64,000 nt of DNA. Source: Microbacterium pumilum (lineage in GTDB: Bacteria; Actinomycetota; Actinomycetes; Actinomycetales; Microbacteriaceae). Positions within the stretch are counted from its first letter, which is position 1, and each line of letters starts with the position of its first letter. The position numbers were made by a program, and so were the translations under genes. Below are positions 24,961 through 62,105 of this stretch, in pieces. The notes below the pieces were generated by a model that was not told the origin of the DNA, searched no databases, and was given only the letters and a program-made list of their open reading frames with translations. The DNA is taken from assembly GCF_039530225.1 (NCBI RefSeq), contig NZ_BAAAOH010000001.1:2294001-2358000 (forward strand), written 5' to 3'.

Positions 24961-25090
24961 GGTCCCTGAGCCTGTCGAAGGGTCGATGCGGTGGCCGCAC
25001 GCTCGGCAGGCTCAACGACCGACCAGGCTCAACGACCGACCAGGCTCAGCGACCGACCGGGCTCGGTGACCGCCGCGGCTCGGTGACCGA
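24961..25090. repeat. REP-like element followed by a 17-bp tandem repeat
   Basis: Bases 24961-24982 carry the complement of the CTTCGACA(A/G)GCTCAGG word also found at 33107-33158 and 34605-34620. It is followed by units CAGGCTCAACGACCGAC starting at 25007, 25024, 25041 and (diverged) 25058, an exact 17-bp period. Located between the divergent mutY and uridine-kinase-like genes. Confidence 0.75.
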
Positions 25091-25131
25091 CCCCCAACCA
25101 CCCCCGGGGAAGCCTCCCCGCCACGCCGCCC

Positions 25132-39787: not shown

Positions 39788-40816
39788 ATGAAGATCGGCA
39801 TCCTCACCAGCGGCGGCGATTGTCCCGGATTGAATGCCGTCATCCGCGGTGTCGTGCTCAAGGGGACGACGACCTACGACCTCGAGTTCGTCGGCATCCG
39901 CGACGGATGGCGCGGCGTGGTCGACGGCGATTTCTTCCCCCTCACGCGCCATGAGGTGAAGGGGCTGTCGAAGGTCGGGGGCACGATCCTGGGGACGTCG
40001 CGGACGAACCCCTACGAGGGGCCGCGCGGTGGCGCCGAGAACATCTCCAAGACCCTTTACGGTCACCGGATGGACGGCATCATCGCGATCGGCGGCGAAG
40101 GCACCCTCGCGGCGGCCGACCGGCTGTCGAAAGACGGGATCAACGTGATCGGCGTGCCCAAGACGATCGACAACGACTTGCGCGCGACCGACTACTCGTT
40201 CGGGTTCGACACCGCCGTCAACATCGCGACCGATGCGATGGACCGCCTGCGGACAACGGGCGACTCGCATCAGCGCTGCATGGTGGCTGAGGTGATGGGC
40301 CGGCACGTCGGGTGGATCGCCCTCCACGCCGGCATCGCCGCCGGCGCCCATGCGATCCTGATCCCCGAGGTGCCGCAGTCGATCGAGGAGGTCGTCGCAC
40401 TCGTCACCAAGGCCCACGACCGAGGCCGCGCACCTCTGGTGGTGGTCTCGGAGGGGTTCACTCTCACCGGCATGGATGAGGCGTACAGCGACAAGGGCCT
40501 CGACGCGTTCAACCGCCCGCGTCTGGGCGGAATCAGCGAGGTGCTGGCGCCCGAGATCCAGCGCCTGACGGGGATCGAGACGAGGGCCACGGTGCTCGGC
40601 CACATCCAGCGCGGCGGCTCTCCGTCGGGCTTCGACCGCGTACTGGCCACGCGGCTCGGACTGCACACCGCGGACGCGGTGGTCGAGGGCGGTTGGGGCC
40701 AGATGGTCGCGATGCGCGGCACCGACATCGTGCGGGTGCCGTTCGCGGAGGCGCTCGGCGAGCTCAACAAAGTGCCCCGCTACCGCTACGACGAGGCTGC
40801 CGCGCTGTTCGGCTGA
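39788..40816 (+). CDS. pfkA: 6-phosphofructokinase, ATP-type
   Basis: 342 residues. LTSGGDCPGLNAVIRGVV binds the phosphate donor; GGEGT (about residues 102-106) with Gly rather than Asp at the discriminating position points to ATP, not pyrophosphate, as donor; PKTIDNDL (about 124-131) carries the catalytic Asp and the Lys typical of the actinobacterial group. GRHVGWIALHAGIA and GHIQRGGSPSGFDR complete the family. It commits fructose 6-phosphate to glycolysis. The ATG has an AAGGA site; a TAATGT at 39731-39736 may be the -10 box. Confidence 0.95.
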   Translation: MKIGILTSGGDCPGLNAVIRGVVLKGTTTYDLEFVGIRDGWRGVVDGDFFPLTRHEVKGLSKVGGTILGTSRTNPYEGPRGGAENISKTLYGHRMDGIIAIGGEGTLAAADRLSKDGINVIGVPKTIDNDLRATDYSFGFDTAVNIATDAMDRLRTTGDSHQRCMVAEVMGRHVGWIALHAGIAAGAHAILIPEVPQSIEEVVALVTKAHDRGRAPLVVVSEGFTLTGMDEAYSDKGLDAFNRPRLGGISEVLAPEIQRLTGIETRATVLGHIQRGGSPSGFDRVLATRLGLHTADAVVEGGWGQMVAMRGTDIVRVPFAEALGELNKVPRYRYDEAAALFG

Positions 40817-40852
40817 TTCGTCGCCGGCGGGCTGTTGGTGCGCTGAGCATCG

Positions 40853-40927
40853 ATGTCCCGCTTTGCCCGGCTCGCGTCCCACATTCGCTCGGATCAGCAG
40901 CTCCATTGTGCAGAGTTTCGGGACATG
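40853..40927. repeat. 55-bp TGTCCC palindromic element, locus B, with an upstream half element
   Basis: Full 55-bp copy at 40873-40927, starting CGCGTCCCACATTCGCTCGG and ending GTTTCGGGACATG; a half copy ATGTCCCGCTTTGCCCGG lies at 40853-40870. It is located directly after pfkA and before the DUF559-type gene. Confidence 0.75.
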
Positions 40928-41038
40928 GGTTGAATTGGACCGCAGTCGGCTCCTCCCCAGGCTGCGGAAACGTGCTGGATCTGGGGGGCGGTTGTGCAAA
41001 TCGGCGAGGGCGCGACGCTCGGTCACCATGGTTGGTGG

Positions 41039-41959
41039 ATGCCGCGACATGCCAACCCGCTGCCTGCTGACCTTCCCGGCCGGTTCAGCGTGCGCGAGGC
41101 ACGGGCTCGTGGCGTTTCAGCGGGAAGACTCGACCGCGGCGACTTGCGGGCGCCCTACCACGGAGTCAGGGCGACCGCGAAGACTCCGGCGCCTGCAACC
41201 CTGACCGACCGCTGCCGCGAGTATGCCCCGCGGCTGAAGGACTGGCAGTTCTTCAGTCACGAGACTGCGCTTCAACTTCTCGGCGCGCCCATGCCGGGCT
41301 GGCCCTACCTGCCCAAGATCCACGTCGCGGCGCATCGTCCAGCCCGAGAGCCCCGCACTCAGGGCGCGGTCGGCCACCGGCTGCAGCTTCGCGAACCGGC
41401 AACACGTTTCGCTCTCGATGATCTTCGAGTCGAGCATCCGGTGCGCGCATGGCGTCAATGCGGCACTCTGTGGCGATTGGACGATCTCATCGCCGCGGGA
41501 GACTTCCTCGTTTCGGGGGAGTCGCCGCTCGCATCAGTGGACGAGCTCAGGACGGAGATCGAGGTGATGGGCGACATCCGGAACATTCTGCGGCGCGCTC
41601 TCACGGACATCCGAGTCGGACCGCGCTCGCCGCGTGAGACTCGCCTGCGACTCGTGCTGGTTCGAGCCGGGCTGCCCGAGCCGGAGGTCACCTGGGTGCT
41701 GCGGGACGGGTCGGGCGGTTTCGTGGCCGAACTCGATCTGGCCTACCCGAGATGGCGCATCGCAGCGGAGTACGACGGCCGCGTTCACGCCGAGGACGCG
41801 ACGCAGTTCGCGAAGGATGCCGATCGGTGGGATCGTATCCGCGCCGAGGGCTGGGACCACGTTCGGATCCTGAGCCACCACCTCGCCGGAACCGGTGTCG
41901 TCGCCGTGCGCAAAGTGCGCAATGCGCTCATTCGCGCTGGATGGCAACCTGGGCTCTGA
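41039..41959 (+). CDS. DUF559/VSR-like endonuclease-fold protein with N-terminal winged helix-like region
   Basis: 306 residues. The first 90 residues (ADLPGRFSVREARARGVSAGRLDRGDLRAPYHGVRA) look like the DNA-binding antitoxin-type domain often fused to this family. The C-terminal part has SPRETRLRLVLVRAGLPEPEV, then ELDLAYPRWRIAAEYDGRVHAE, the spaced acidic residues of a PD-(D/E)XK-like nuclease fold, and a final WDHVRILSHHL strand. Such proteins are abundant in actinobacteria and have no proven function. Start uncertain: a GTG 45 bases upstream is also possible. The gene is bracketed by palindromic elements B and C. Confidence 0.75.
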   Translation: MPRHANPLPADLPGRFSVREARARGVSAGRLDRGDLRAPYHGVRATAKTPAPATLTDRCREYAPRLKDWQFFSHETALQLLGAPMPGWPYLPKIHVAAHRPAREPRTQGAVGHRLQLREPATRFALDDLRVEHPVRAWRQCGTLWRLDDLIAAGDFLVSGESPLASVDELRTEIEVMGDIRNILRRALTDIRVGPRSPRETRLRLVLVRAGLPEPEVTWVLRDGSGGFVAELDLAYPRWRIAAEYDGRVHAEDATQFAKDADRWDRIRAEGWDHVRILSHHLAGTGVVAVRKVRNALIRAGWQPGL

Positions 41960-42000: not shown

Positions 42001-42159
42001 CATGTCCCACTTTCACCCGCAATCGTCTGCCCCATCCGAGGGAGAATGGGACACGGTGCGGCAGCAGTGGGACCCCGGGACAAGCCGCGACGCGGCGCAC
42101 CAGGCATGTCCCGGTTTCGCCCGCTATCGGGCGGCGAATCCGGGGGAAAGTGGGACATG
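42001..42159. repeat. Two 55-bp TGTCCC palindromic elements, locus C
   Basis: Copies at 42001-42055 and 42105-42159, both beginning CATGTCCC and both exactly 55 bp. The second is the cleanest: CATGTCCCGGTTTCGCCCGC at one end and GGGGGAAAGTGGGACATG at the other. They fill the convergent gap between the DUF559-type gene and the oligopeptidase gene. Confidence 0.8.
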
Positions 42160-42190: not shown

Positions 42191-44323
42191 TCAGTCGGCG
42201 AGCGCCACAACCTCCAGGAGCCAGGCGAGCTCGAACGCCCGCTCCTTCCAGCTGTTGTAGCGACCGCTGACGCCGCCGTGACCGGCGACCATCTCGCACT
42301 TGAGGAGGGCATCAGCGCCGACCTCTCGCAGGCGCGCGACCCACTTCGCCGGCTCGACGTACAGCACGCGGGTGTCGTTGAGGGATGTGACGGCGAGGAT
42401 GCGGGGGTAGGCGACATCCGCCCGCACGTTCTCGTACGGCGAGTACGACTTCATGTACGCGTAGACGTCGGCGTTGTGCAGCGGGTCGCCCCACTCGTCC
42501 CACTCGATCACGGTGAGCGGCAGAGACGGGTCGAGGATCGTCGTCAGCGCGTCGACGAACGGCACATCCGCGAGGATGCCGGCGAACAGCTCGGGAGCCA
42601 GGTTCGCCACGGCCCCCATGAGCAGGCCGCCGGCCGAGCCGCCCTCGGCCACCAGCTGCGATGCGGATGTGAACCCCTGGTCGATCAGGTGGCGGGCGCA
42701 GTCCACGAAGTCCGTGAACGTGTTGCGCTTGCTGAGCATCTTGCCGTCTTCGTACCATTGGCGGCCCATCTCGCCGCCGCCGCGGACATGGGCGACCGCG
42801 AAGATCACACCGCGATCGAGCTCCGACAATCGCGGCACCGAGAAGCCCGGCTCGATCGAGTGCTCGTACGATCCGTAGCCGTAGAGGTGCAGGGCTCGCG
42901 GTGCGTCCCCCGCCTCGCCGAACGATCGCTTCCACACCAGCGAGACGGGAATCTGCACGCCGTCGTGGGCAGTCGCCCACACCCGTGCCTGGGCGTAATC
43001 GCTCGGCTCGTATCCGCCAAGCACCGGCTGGCGCTTGCGCAGCAGCAGCTTGTGCGTCGCGATGTCGTAGTCGTAGACCGTCCCGGGCGTGACGAATGAC
43101 CCATACCCGAGGCGCAGCACCGGGGGAGCCCACTCCGGGTTGCCGCCCGTCCCCACGGCATACAGCGGCTCGTCGAACTCGATCTCCGACACCGATCCGT
43201 CGGCGTAGTCGAGCATGCCGATGCGCGGCAGCCCGCCGCGGCGATAGCCGACCACACCCCAGTCGCGGAAGGTCGACACGCCGAGCAGCCGTTCTCCCGG
43301 ACGGTGCGGGATGACGGTCTGCCGCGCTCCGGAGGGATCGGATGCCGCCACCCGGACGAGCTCGAAGTCCAGCGCTCCGTCGTTGTGCAGGATGAACAGC
43401 ACATCTTCGCCGTCGATCACGGCGTGCGAGGAGTCGTACTCGACGCCCTCGGTGCGCGGCCACACCACGCGCGGCTCGGCGCGCAGATCGCCGGCATCCA
43501 CGAGCCATTCCTCGCTCGTGATCGACGAGCCGATGCCGATCACGAGGAACCGGTCGCTGTGGGTGAACCCGGCTCCCACCCAGTACCGCTCGTCGGGCTC
43601 GTGGAAGAGCTTCGCGTCGTCGGCCACCGGCGTGCCGAGCTCGTGCAGCCAGACCGTGTCAGGGCGCCACGCGTCGTCCACGGTCGTGTAGACGATGAAA
43701 CGCCCATCGGGCGAGAAGGTCGCACCCGCGAACGTGCCGGGAATCTCGTCGGGCAGCTGTTCGCCGGTGACGAGGTTTCGCACCCGTACGGTGTATCGCT
43801 CGTCGCCGGCAACGTCGACACCGTAGAGCAGGAGCGTGCCGTCGAGCGACACCTCGAAGCTGCCCAGCGCGAAGAACTCCTGACCTTCGGCCTCGACGTT
43901 CCCGTCCAGCAGAACCTGCTCGCCGGGCACCGCGGCATCGGGCGAGAGCTCGGGGGGAGTCCAGTCGTCTTCCGAGGCCAACGGCGCGCGGCAGTGGATG
44001 CCGTACTGCTTGCCCTCGAGGGTCCTGCCGTAGTACCACCAGGCACCGTGGCGGGTGGGCACCGACAGGTCGGTCTCGAGCGTGCGCCCCTTGATCTCCT
44101 CGAAGATCGTCGTGCGGAGTCCTTCGAGGTGCGCGGTGCGCTCCTGCGTATAGGCGTTCTCGGCCTCGAGGTGCTCGATGACGGCCGCATCCTCCTTGCC
44201 ACGGAACCACTCATACGGGTCTTCGACCGAGTCGCCGTGGTGCGTGCGGACGAGGTGGGAGCGGGAGGCGACGGGGGGAGTGGCGGGCGTGGCAGAGCCG
44301 GACGTGGGCGAGTCGATGGTCAC
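42191..44323 (-). CDS. ptrB: Oligopeptidase B, S9A family
   Basis: 710 residues. A seven-bladed propeller (about 70-420) gates a C-terminal alpha/beta-hydrolase domain. Catalytic Ser in GGSAGGLLMG (about 561), Asp in SLNDTRVLYVEPAKW (about 649) and His in GHGGVSGRY (about 679). It cleaves short peptides after Arg or Lys in the cytosol. The GTG start is supported by a TACCGT box exactly six bases upstream, giving a leaderless message. Convergent with the DUF559-type gene. Confidence 0.94.
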   Translation of the reverse strand: MTIDSPTSGSATPATPPVASRSHLVRTHHGDSVEDPYEWFRGKEDAAVIEHLEAENAYTQERTAHLEGLRTTIFEEIKGRTLETDLSVPTRHGAWWYYGRTLEGKQYGIHCRAPLASEDDWTPPELSPDAAVPGEQVLLDGNVEAEGQEFFALGSFEVSLDGTLLLYGVDVAGDERYTVRVRNLVTGEQLPDEIPGTFAGATFSPDGRFIVYTTVDDAWRPDTVWLHELGTPVADDAKLFHEPDERYWVGAGFTHSDRFLVIGIGSSITSEEWLVDAGDLRAEPRVVWPRTEGVEYDSSHAVIDGEDVLFILHNDGALDFELVRVAASDPSGARQTVIPHRPGERLLGVSTFRDWGVVGYRRGGLPRIGMLDYADGSVSEIEFDEPLYAVGTGGNPEWAPPVLRLGYGSFVTPGTVYDYDIATHKLLLRKRQPVLGGYEPSDYAQARVWATAHDGVQIPVSLVWKRSFGEAGDAPRALHLYGYGSYEHSIEPGFSVPRLSELDRGVIFAVAHVRGGGEMGRQWYEDGKMLSKRNTFTDFVDCARHLIDQGFTSASQLVAEGGSAGGLLMGAVANLAPELFAGILADVPFVDALTTILDPSLPLTVIEWDEWGDPLHNADVYAYMKSYSPYENVRADVAYPRILAVTSLNDTRVLYVEPAKWVARLREVGADALLKCEMVAGHGGVSGRYNSWKERAFELAWLLEVVALAD

Positions 44324-61699: not shown

Positions 61700-61773
61700 G
61701 CTGTGCCCGGCGCGTATAGCCTCCCCGCCGAGGCCCCGCATCCCCGCTGAGACGCGGCGTTCCCGCCGAAACC

Positions 61774-62105
61774 CGGCATTCGCGCCGAGACAAGGTGGCG
61801 TGCGCCAGGGTTTCGGCGCCGCCCGAGGGTCTCACCCGGCGGCGACCAGATCTGCATGCCAGACGACCGCGACATCCGGCATTCGCGCTGAGACCCGGTG
61901 GCCTGGGCCAGTGTCTCGCCGCCAACCGAGGGTCTCGCCCGCCCGCGAGCAGATCGGCATCGCAGATCGTCGCTTTCGCCCGCCGAGACCCAGCATTCGC
62001 GATGAGACCCGGCATCCGGCCGAGACCCGGCACCCGCGCCGAGACCCGGTGGCGTACCCCGGGGGCTCGGCGCCACGCGCAGGTCTCGCTCGCGGCGACC
62101 GCGCG
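61774..62105. repeat. Long imperfect GAGACCCGG repeat block
   Basis: Three long units beginning CGGCATTCGCGC or CGGCACCCGCGC at 61774, 61877 and 62028, each followed by GAGAC(C/A)... and an inverted GTCTC about 30-50 bases later. Between units 2 and 3 lie shorter 18-20-base GAGACCCGGCAT units. No gene is supported in this convergent gap. Confidence 0.75.

Follow-up and report, generated by a model that had tools for sequence, protein, structure and literature searches.

A dispersed TGTCCC palindrome family in Microbacterium and the putative nuclease encoded between its copies

Introduction

What kind of repeat are the TGTCCC palindromes of Microbacterium pumilum, and what might have spread them? 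The question arises from a 64,000-nucleotide stretch of this genome (RefSeq assembly GCF_039530225.1, contig NZ_BAAAOH010000001.1, positions 2,294,001 to 2,358,000; hereafter the window), in which an earlier note described four copies, here A to D, as exact palindromes of common descent. A candidate enzyme gene between copies B and C was overlooked there. By prediction, its product joins an AbiEi-like DNA-binding part to a nuclease resembling Vsr and homing endonucleases. We propose, at a probability of about 0.6, that the palindromes are binding sites of the nuclease encoded between them and have spread with its help, in analogy to REPIN-RAYT though the enzyme is unrelated. There is good support for the pairing of gene with palindrome. 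Since relatives show it with other palindrome sequences, these repeats may be of a self-spreading bacterial kind so far undescribed. Among open PMC papers, preprints not included, none was found in which dispersed palindromes are linked with DUF559, MTES_1575 or AbiEi-nuclease proteins.

A palindrome family of fixed geometry

All four copies are present in the sequence. In A, C and D the distance from TGTCCC to GGGACA is exactly 51 nt, or 55 with two flanking bases, the length that the earlier note gave for every copy; B is compound. Solo copy A (2564–2640) is a palindrome with tips at 2566 and 2616 and an outer half-site ending at 2637. Copy B (40852–40927), at the left end of the gene cassette, has its full tip at 40854, a weaker half-site, CGTCCC, exactly 21 nt further in at 40875, and an inverted half-site ending at 40925; the left end given by the earlier note (40873) falls at the weaker half-site. 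Copy C (42001–42074), at the right end, joins the palindrome 42003–42053 to a degenerate half-site, GGGACC, ending at 42074, and copy D (42105–42159; palindrome 42107–42157) is a second palindrome on that side. The extra half copies reported beside A and B are thus a regular feature, since the offset of 21 nt recurs at A (2637 against 2616), B and C (42074 against 42053).

The palindromes are not exact. Their arms are imperfect, and D alone among the four is included in the six palindromes that a sequence-blind scan of the window grades as such. Nor is the loop conserved: the centre is the variable part, so the argument from a shared loop to common descent fails, and what the copies have in common is two inverted half-sites and the distance between them.

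Dispersal itself is borne out: the complete 4.45-Mb source genome contains 23 TGTCCC-N24..54-GGGACA pairs and only 3 of the reversed control, which excludes chance. The outcome that the earlier note named as refuting its view, a scan without additional copies, thus did not arise. The length is exactly 51 nt in 18 pairs, 50 nt in two and 39–46 nt in three. A search for half-sites with up to two mismatches found 42 places (control, 6); all 27 with at most one mismatch belong to the TGTCCC/GGGACA pairs, each with its partner, and where a one-sided tag is concerned the pair search pattern itself imposed paired tips. The arm consensus is approximately TGTCCC-R-N-TTTC-N-CCCG with a variable middle, three of the 23 pairs being omitted for their length (39, 42 and 46 nt); the 42-nt pair, which has a good half-site, may be a shortened copy. 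The reported placement downstream of genes also stands. By a simple gene caller, 18 of the 20 copies of 50–51 nt are intergenic and two lie inside a called open reading frame (ORF); all 18 have the 3′ end of one or more genes beside them, and in no case are the neighbouring genes divergent.

A nuclease gene paired with the palindromes

The gene between B and C (40994–41959, forward strand, 321 aa) begins with GTG at 40994, while the starts of aligned homologues suggest ATG at 41039. Its product is predicted to comprise an AbiEi-like part (residues ~19–207) and a Vsr/EDxHD-like nuclease part (~210–317); the predicted fold agrees with AbiEi in the one and with the EDxHD catalytic domain in the other. 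Foldseek by itself returned nothing at E ≤0.001. Residues E215, D248, E259, D261, H265 and D275 are invariant in 50 of 50 proteins, and may correspond to the EDxHD motif. The family profile (A2) finds no other member in the window. Elsewhere in the source genome, a second family member (G000:C1:431796-432725, L204) has TACGGACGCGACACGCCG palindromes on both sides. A paralogue (G000:C1:2052292-2053206, L203) may be decayed, one search placing an in-frame stop in it and another none; a tandemly arrayed GGTCCGGGTTTCGCACGCTC repeat comes after it.

Across 119 genomes of the same genus, a sample drawn from a larger genus, the number of TGTCCC palindromes ranges from 0 to 86 (tips imposed, spans of 36–66 nt allowed). 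Listed copies in palindrome-rich genomes mostly span 49–52 nt. Each species has its own inner arm, for example CCCCCG in the source genome, TGGCTG in G063, CTGCTG in G114 and CTCCTCG in G011. That the arms vary by lineage while the geometry hardly does points to a factor acting in trans and changing along with the arms.

The nuclease gene behaves as such a factor might. A close homologue (E <1e-100) is present in 21 of the 119 genomes, the source included, and all 21 carry at least four palindromes (median 19); without one, 22 of 98 genomes do (median 2). Fisher tests on these counts ignore relatedness. A tblastn search of the protein against 55 loci matched, besides its own locus, only L049 (G063), whose 60% identical gene is again bracketed. 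At the 30 best homologue loci, exact TGTCCC palindromes adjoin the gene in 25 and stand on both sides in 16; read by eye, the remaining five have other repeats, namely GAGGTCCC (L078, L082), TGTCCGG (L079, L084) and a TGTCACAG-like one (L083). A sequence-blind scan for palindromes of 44–59 nt within 450 bp of the gene was positive at 74 of 80 named loci, on both sides at 44, against 4 of 160 control windows, some of them short at contig ends; the two locus sets (L056-L085 and L086-L165) overlap and many loci are identical. The named relatives are almost all Microbacterium; two contigs titled Stenotrophomonas maltophilia and Planococcus (L098, L151) carry Microbacterium-like cassettes and are perhaps mislabelled or contaminated assemblies.

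In other genera palindromes flank the gene at 26 of 28 loci, on both sides at 16 (control, 1 of 56). The nuclease family has matches in 61 of 85 genera and 100 of 150 genomes in a sample of the bacterial family. A plasmid collection gave four records, three from Arthrobacter; under relaxed settings, one Arthrobacter locus (L267) has matching palindromes on both sides, and each of the remaining two has a one-sided candidate. As for viral carriers, 46 stretches in IMG/VR matched a pattern and none is a relative; there is one unannotated phage-like record at 32% identity.

Palindrome specificity and the nuclease clade

Among the proteins compared, the palindrome sequence largely follows the protein clade. 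Palindromes of AGGTCCC type with the same core spacing are repeated in only three of the 119 genomes, G059 (4), G015 (5) and G056 (2); elsewhere the search returned three of different design in G076 and one chance-like match in each of six further genomes. The homologues of G059 and G015 are flanked by this type, and that of G056 has a similar score and an in-frame stop. Palindromes of GTGTCCA type reach at least five copies in 19 of the 119 genomes, 14 of which are among the 21 with a homologue of a second class (44–50% identity). In a tree of 50 proteins, 42 of which were given a palindrome label by hand, there are five types and five changes of type.

The pairing also allowed a prospective test in another genus. 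A half-site was read from the palindromes with near-identical arms that flank homologue L222 in genome G139, and was searched for in G139 and six other genomes. It has 49 hits in G139, 46 of which form 23 palindromes of exactly 49 nt, two at the gene and 21 elsewhere; the other six genomes give 1–3 hits each, and the reversed control gives none in G139 and 1–6 in the others.

Cassette anatomy and turnover

Beside the gene at 35 loci, half-sites keep preferred distances (the figures are the most frequent values). Same-strand TGTCCC-type half-sites spaced by 21 nt (38 cases) or 42 nt (9 cases) lie almost only to the left of the gene, inverted ones spaced by 21 nt (41 cases) or 42 nt (13 cases) almost only to the right, and half-site spans beside the gene are 51/50 (78 times) and 72/71 (57 times). 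The two ends of the cassette are therefore mirror images of each other, and two helical turns separate their half-sites.

Over 16 arm positions in five genomes, pairing within and between copies was 9.1/8.3, 10.7/9.9, 8.6/7.9, 8.9/9.0 and 7.6/7.4, a small within-copy excess in three (shuffle fractions 0.043, 0.0085 and 0.043) and none in two. The copies used were 17 of 18 (G000), 23 of 25 (G114), 19 of 20 (G049) and 13 and 14 from the partly listed G063 and G109, omitting near-duplicates, odd lengths and one further G049 copy. With so small an excess, a pair of protein half-sites seems a better description of the inverted design than a maintained hairpin.

In the window the cassette lies between the phosphofructokinase gene pfkA (39788–40816, forward strand; PF00365) and a prolyl oligopeptidase gene (POP; 42191–44323, reverse strand; PF02897 and PF00326), as it does in many species. 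Over 153 pairs of 18 such loci, mean identity is 91.7% for pfkA and 71.2% for the nuclease gene; it is 87.6% for POP among the 16 loci that hold it. Loci L101 and L106 share flanks of 94.9 and 95.0% identity and nuclease genes of 69.7%, whereas for L102 and L106 the values are 94.1, 91.5 and 96.2%. The nuclease gene is reversed at six of the 18 loci. The five short-gap pfkA–POP loci fetched (L246-L249, L254) have no gene, and one of them holds a lone palindrome of another type. Among 11 other gene-sized inserts at this position, nine hold a palindrome of scan grade where chance would give one or two. Of nine insert ORFs run through Pfam, some probably in the wrong frame, four match DUF559 and five nothing. 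This turnover is the pattern that a homing-like or replaceable cassette would leave, whatever its mechanism; on cutting of an empty allele and copying into it, the discordant identities of cassette and flanks bear only indirectly. In G007, G058 and G070 the reversed TGTCCC control pattern has 22, 25 and 20 occurrences, and palindromes of ACAGG/CCTGT type stand beside pfkA–POP inserts (L239, L240, L244; L244 with DUF559), perhaps another nuclease-palindrome pair.

A proposed mechanism and its difficulties

The observed dispersal, pairing and clade-linked specificity, taken with the predicted fold, can be joined in one scheme. Two protein molecules would sit on two inverted half-sites of ~23 bp, the contact being likely made by the AbiEi-like part, and the outer half-sites, 21 bp away, would bring in more molecules at each end of the cassette. 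Cutting of DNA at or near palindrome sites would fall to the nuclease part. Repair or re-insertion could then carry the whole cassette, in homing-like fashion, to a safe site with a convergent gene on either side, and could also spread bare palindromes as non-autonomous dispersed copies. Judged from sequence, spread driven by the nuclease is the most probable mechanism. A bolder version, to which we give less than even odds, holds that the Vsr/EDxHD-fold nuclease and AbiEi part alone mobilise their own operator, repressor sites having become a transposable repeat, and that a large unrecognised class exists with one enzyme per palindrome specificity.

Several observations weigh against nuclease-assisted spread. 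Kinship among the genomes inflates the co-occurrence tests, and the lower identity of the nuclease gene at pfkA–POP could partly reflect faster evolution. Six of the 80 scanned loci lack a match: four have imperfect ends by eye, L090 has one half-site and L156 none. GTGTCCA palindromes are absent from seven of the 21 genomes that carry a second-class homologue. Close homologues occur singly in all 21 genomes that have them, often at the same locus, so the cassette need not be mobile now. No insertion event, junction, target duplication or excision was seen for any bare palindrome, no search having been aimed at duplications.

A further difficulty lies in palindromes without a partner. Eleven of the 98 genomes lacking a close homologue have at least eight palindromes, a related gene being found in three of them (flanked in G055 and G057, a fragment in G016). 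In G049, G114, G011, G012 and G068, none of 15 family members, mostly of weaker score, was found flanked by the TGTCCC type; seven have look-alike palindromes on both sides. G049 and G114 hold 20 and 25 well-formed TGTCCC palindromes of 49–53 nt with no partner found. Candidate readings are a lost or diverged enzyme or another mover. A nuclease hidden among these palindromes was sought with the A2 profile in six stretches from G114 and G049, with no match; one palindrome pair there encloses a hutI-like amidohydrolase gene. G102 and G110 carry eight palindromes each.

Alternative explanations

The protein might instead be a regulator whose palindromes are operators, at its own gene through AbiEi-like autoregulation and elsewhere as a dispersed regulon, the nuclease part having another role. 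AbiEi and Rv2827c control their own operons via paired 23-bp inverted repeats (PMC7319586), and in the 44–59-nt scan a palindrome lies upstream of the gene at 61 of 80 loci. It lies downstream at 57 of the 80 as well, however; all 18 intergenic copies of 50–51 nt in the source genome are found at gene 3′ ends, none of them between divergent genes, and copy number varies from 0 to 86 among species of one genus. We consider a regulon unlikely.

Miniature elements moved by an unrelated transposase, with the nuclease cassette as a passenger or as a gene inserting into existing repeats, would account for the partnerless sets of G049, G114 and others. They would account poorly for a palindrome type that largely follows the nuclease clade and for mirrored outer half-sites on both sides of the gene. 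Y1 transposases are absent from 17 of 17 genomes, no search having been made for DDE transposases, and we hold this origin to be improbable. RNA hairpins, acting as bidirectional terminators or mRNA stabilisers and clustering by the gene fortuitously, are highly improbable and disfavoured: copies do sit after genes with arms able to pair, slightly better within copies in three of five genomes, but the excess is at most 0.8 of 16 positions, no T-run follows A, C or D by eye, separate GC-rich terminator-like hairpins follow pfkA and POP in related loci, and palindrome presence follows the nuclease gene.

Relation to known systems

If the palindromes are sites of the nuclease, as we favour, the nearest parallel is REPIN-RAYT, which shares dispersed extragenic palindromes, an enzyme gene flanked by the same repeats, a single-copy enzyme and tandem clusters (PMC3116915, PMC3733652); here, too, extragenic palindromes are dispersed and stand on the flanks of the enzyme gene. 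The TGTCCC system works like REPIN-RAYT and is not a member, because it has no Y1 enzyme in the 17 genomes; its enzyme is AbiEi-like and Vsr-like, and its palindromes have a near-fixed span of 49–53 nt with little sign of a maintained hairpin. A RAYT partner was rejected, PF01797 at E 0.01 giving no match in the 17 palindrome-rich genomes and detecting 6 of 14 known genomes as control.

The site bound by AbiEi consists of two 23-bp repeats separated by 3 bp, 49 bp in all (PMC7319586). The AbiE type IV toxin-antitoxin proteins (AbiEi, Rv2827c) differ in that here a nuclease domain is fused and the sites are dispersed in the genome; no adjacent AbiEii (DUF1814) toxin gene occurs in the window, the neighbours being pfkA and the prolyl oligopeptidase gene. 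In contrast to the EDxHD homing endonuclease I-Bth0305I and Vsr, the present gene is flanked by, and co-occurs with, dispersed palindromes, and its homing is putative. TnsA of Tn7 works with TnsB, whereas the cassette in the window consists of a single gene. CGTC-tagged REPs are likewise short palindromes; one of their ends carries CGTC, often TGTC, and a transposase of their own is not known (PMC3733652). They have 8–9 bp stems and 4–5 nt loops, and a link to the TGTCCC palindromes is only a lead.

REP-type repeats are common in bacteria, the described enzyme being RAYT, and one large REP class is without one (PMC3733652). An unrelated enzyme family paired with dispersed palindromes, with a prediction borne out in another genus, makes the spread of repeats without RAYT directly testable. 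It provides many natural specificity pairs readable from sequence and putative nucleases with long, readable recognition sites, and gives context to proteins named hypothetical protein, DUF559 or very-short-patch-repair endonuclease.

Two further repeats were observed in the window, an imperfect-repeat array around CGAGACCCGGCATTCGCGC at 61724–62049 and a 17-nt tandem repeat, CAGGCTCAACGACCGAC, at 25007–25091 near a CCCTGAGCCTGTCGAAGGG stretch.
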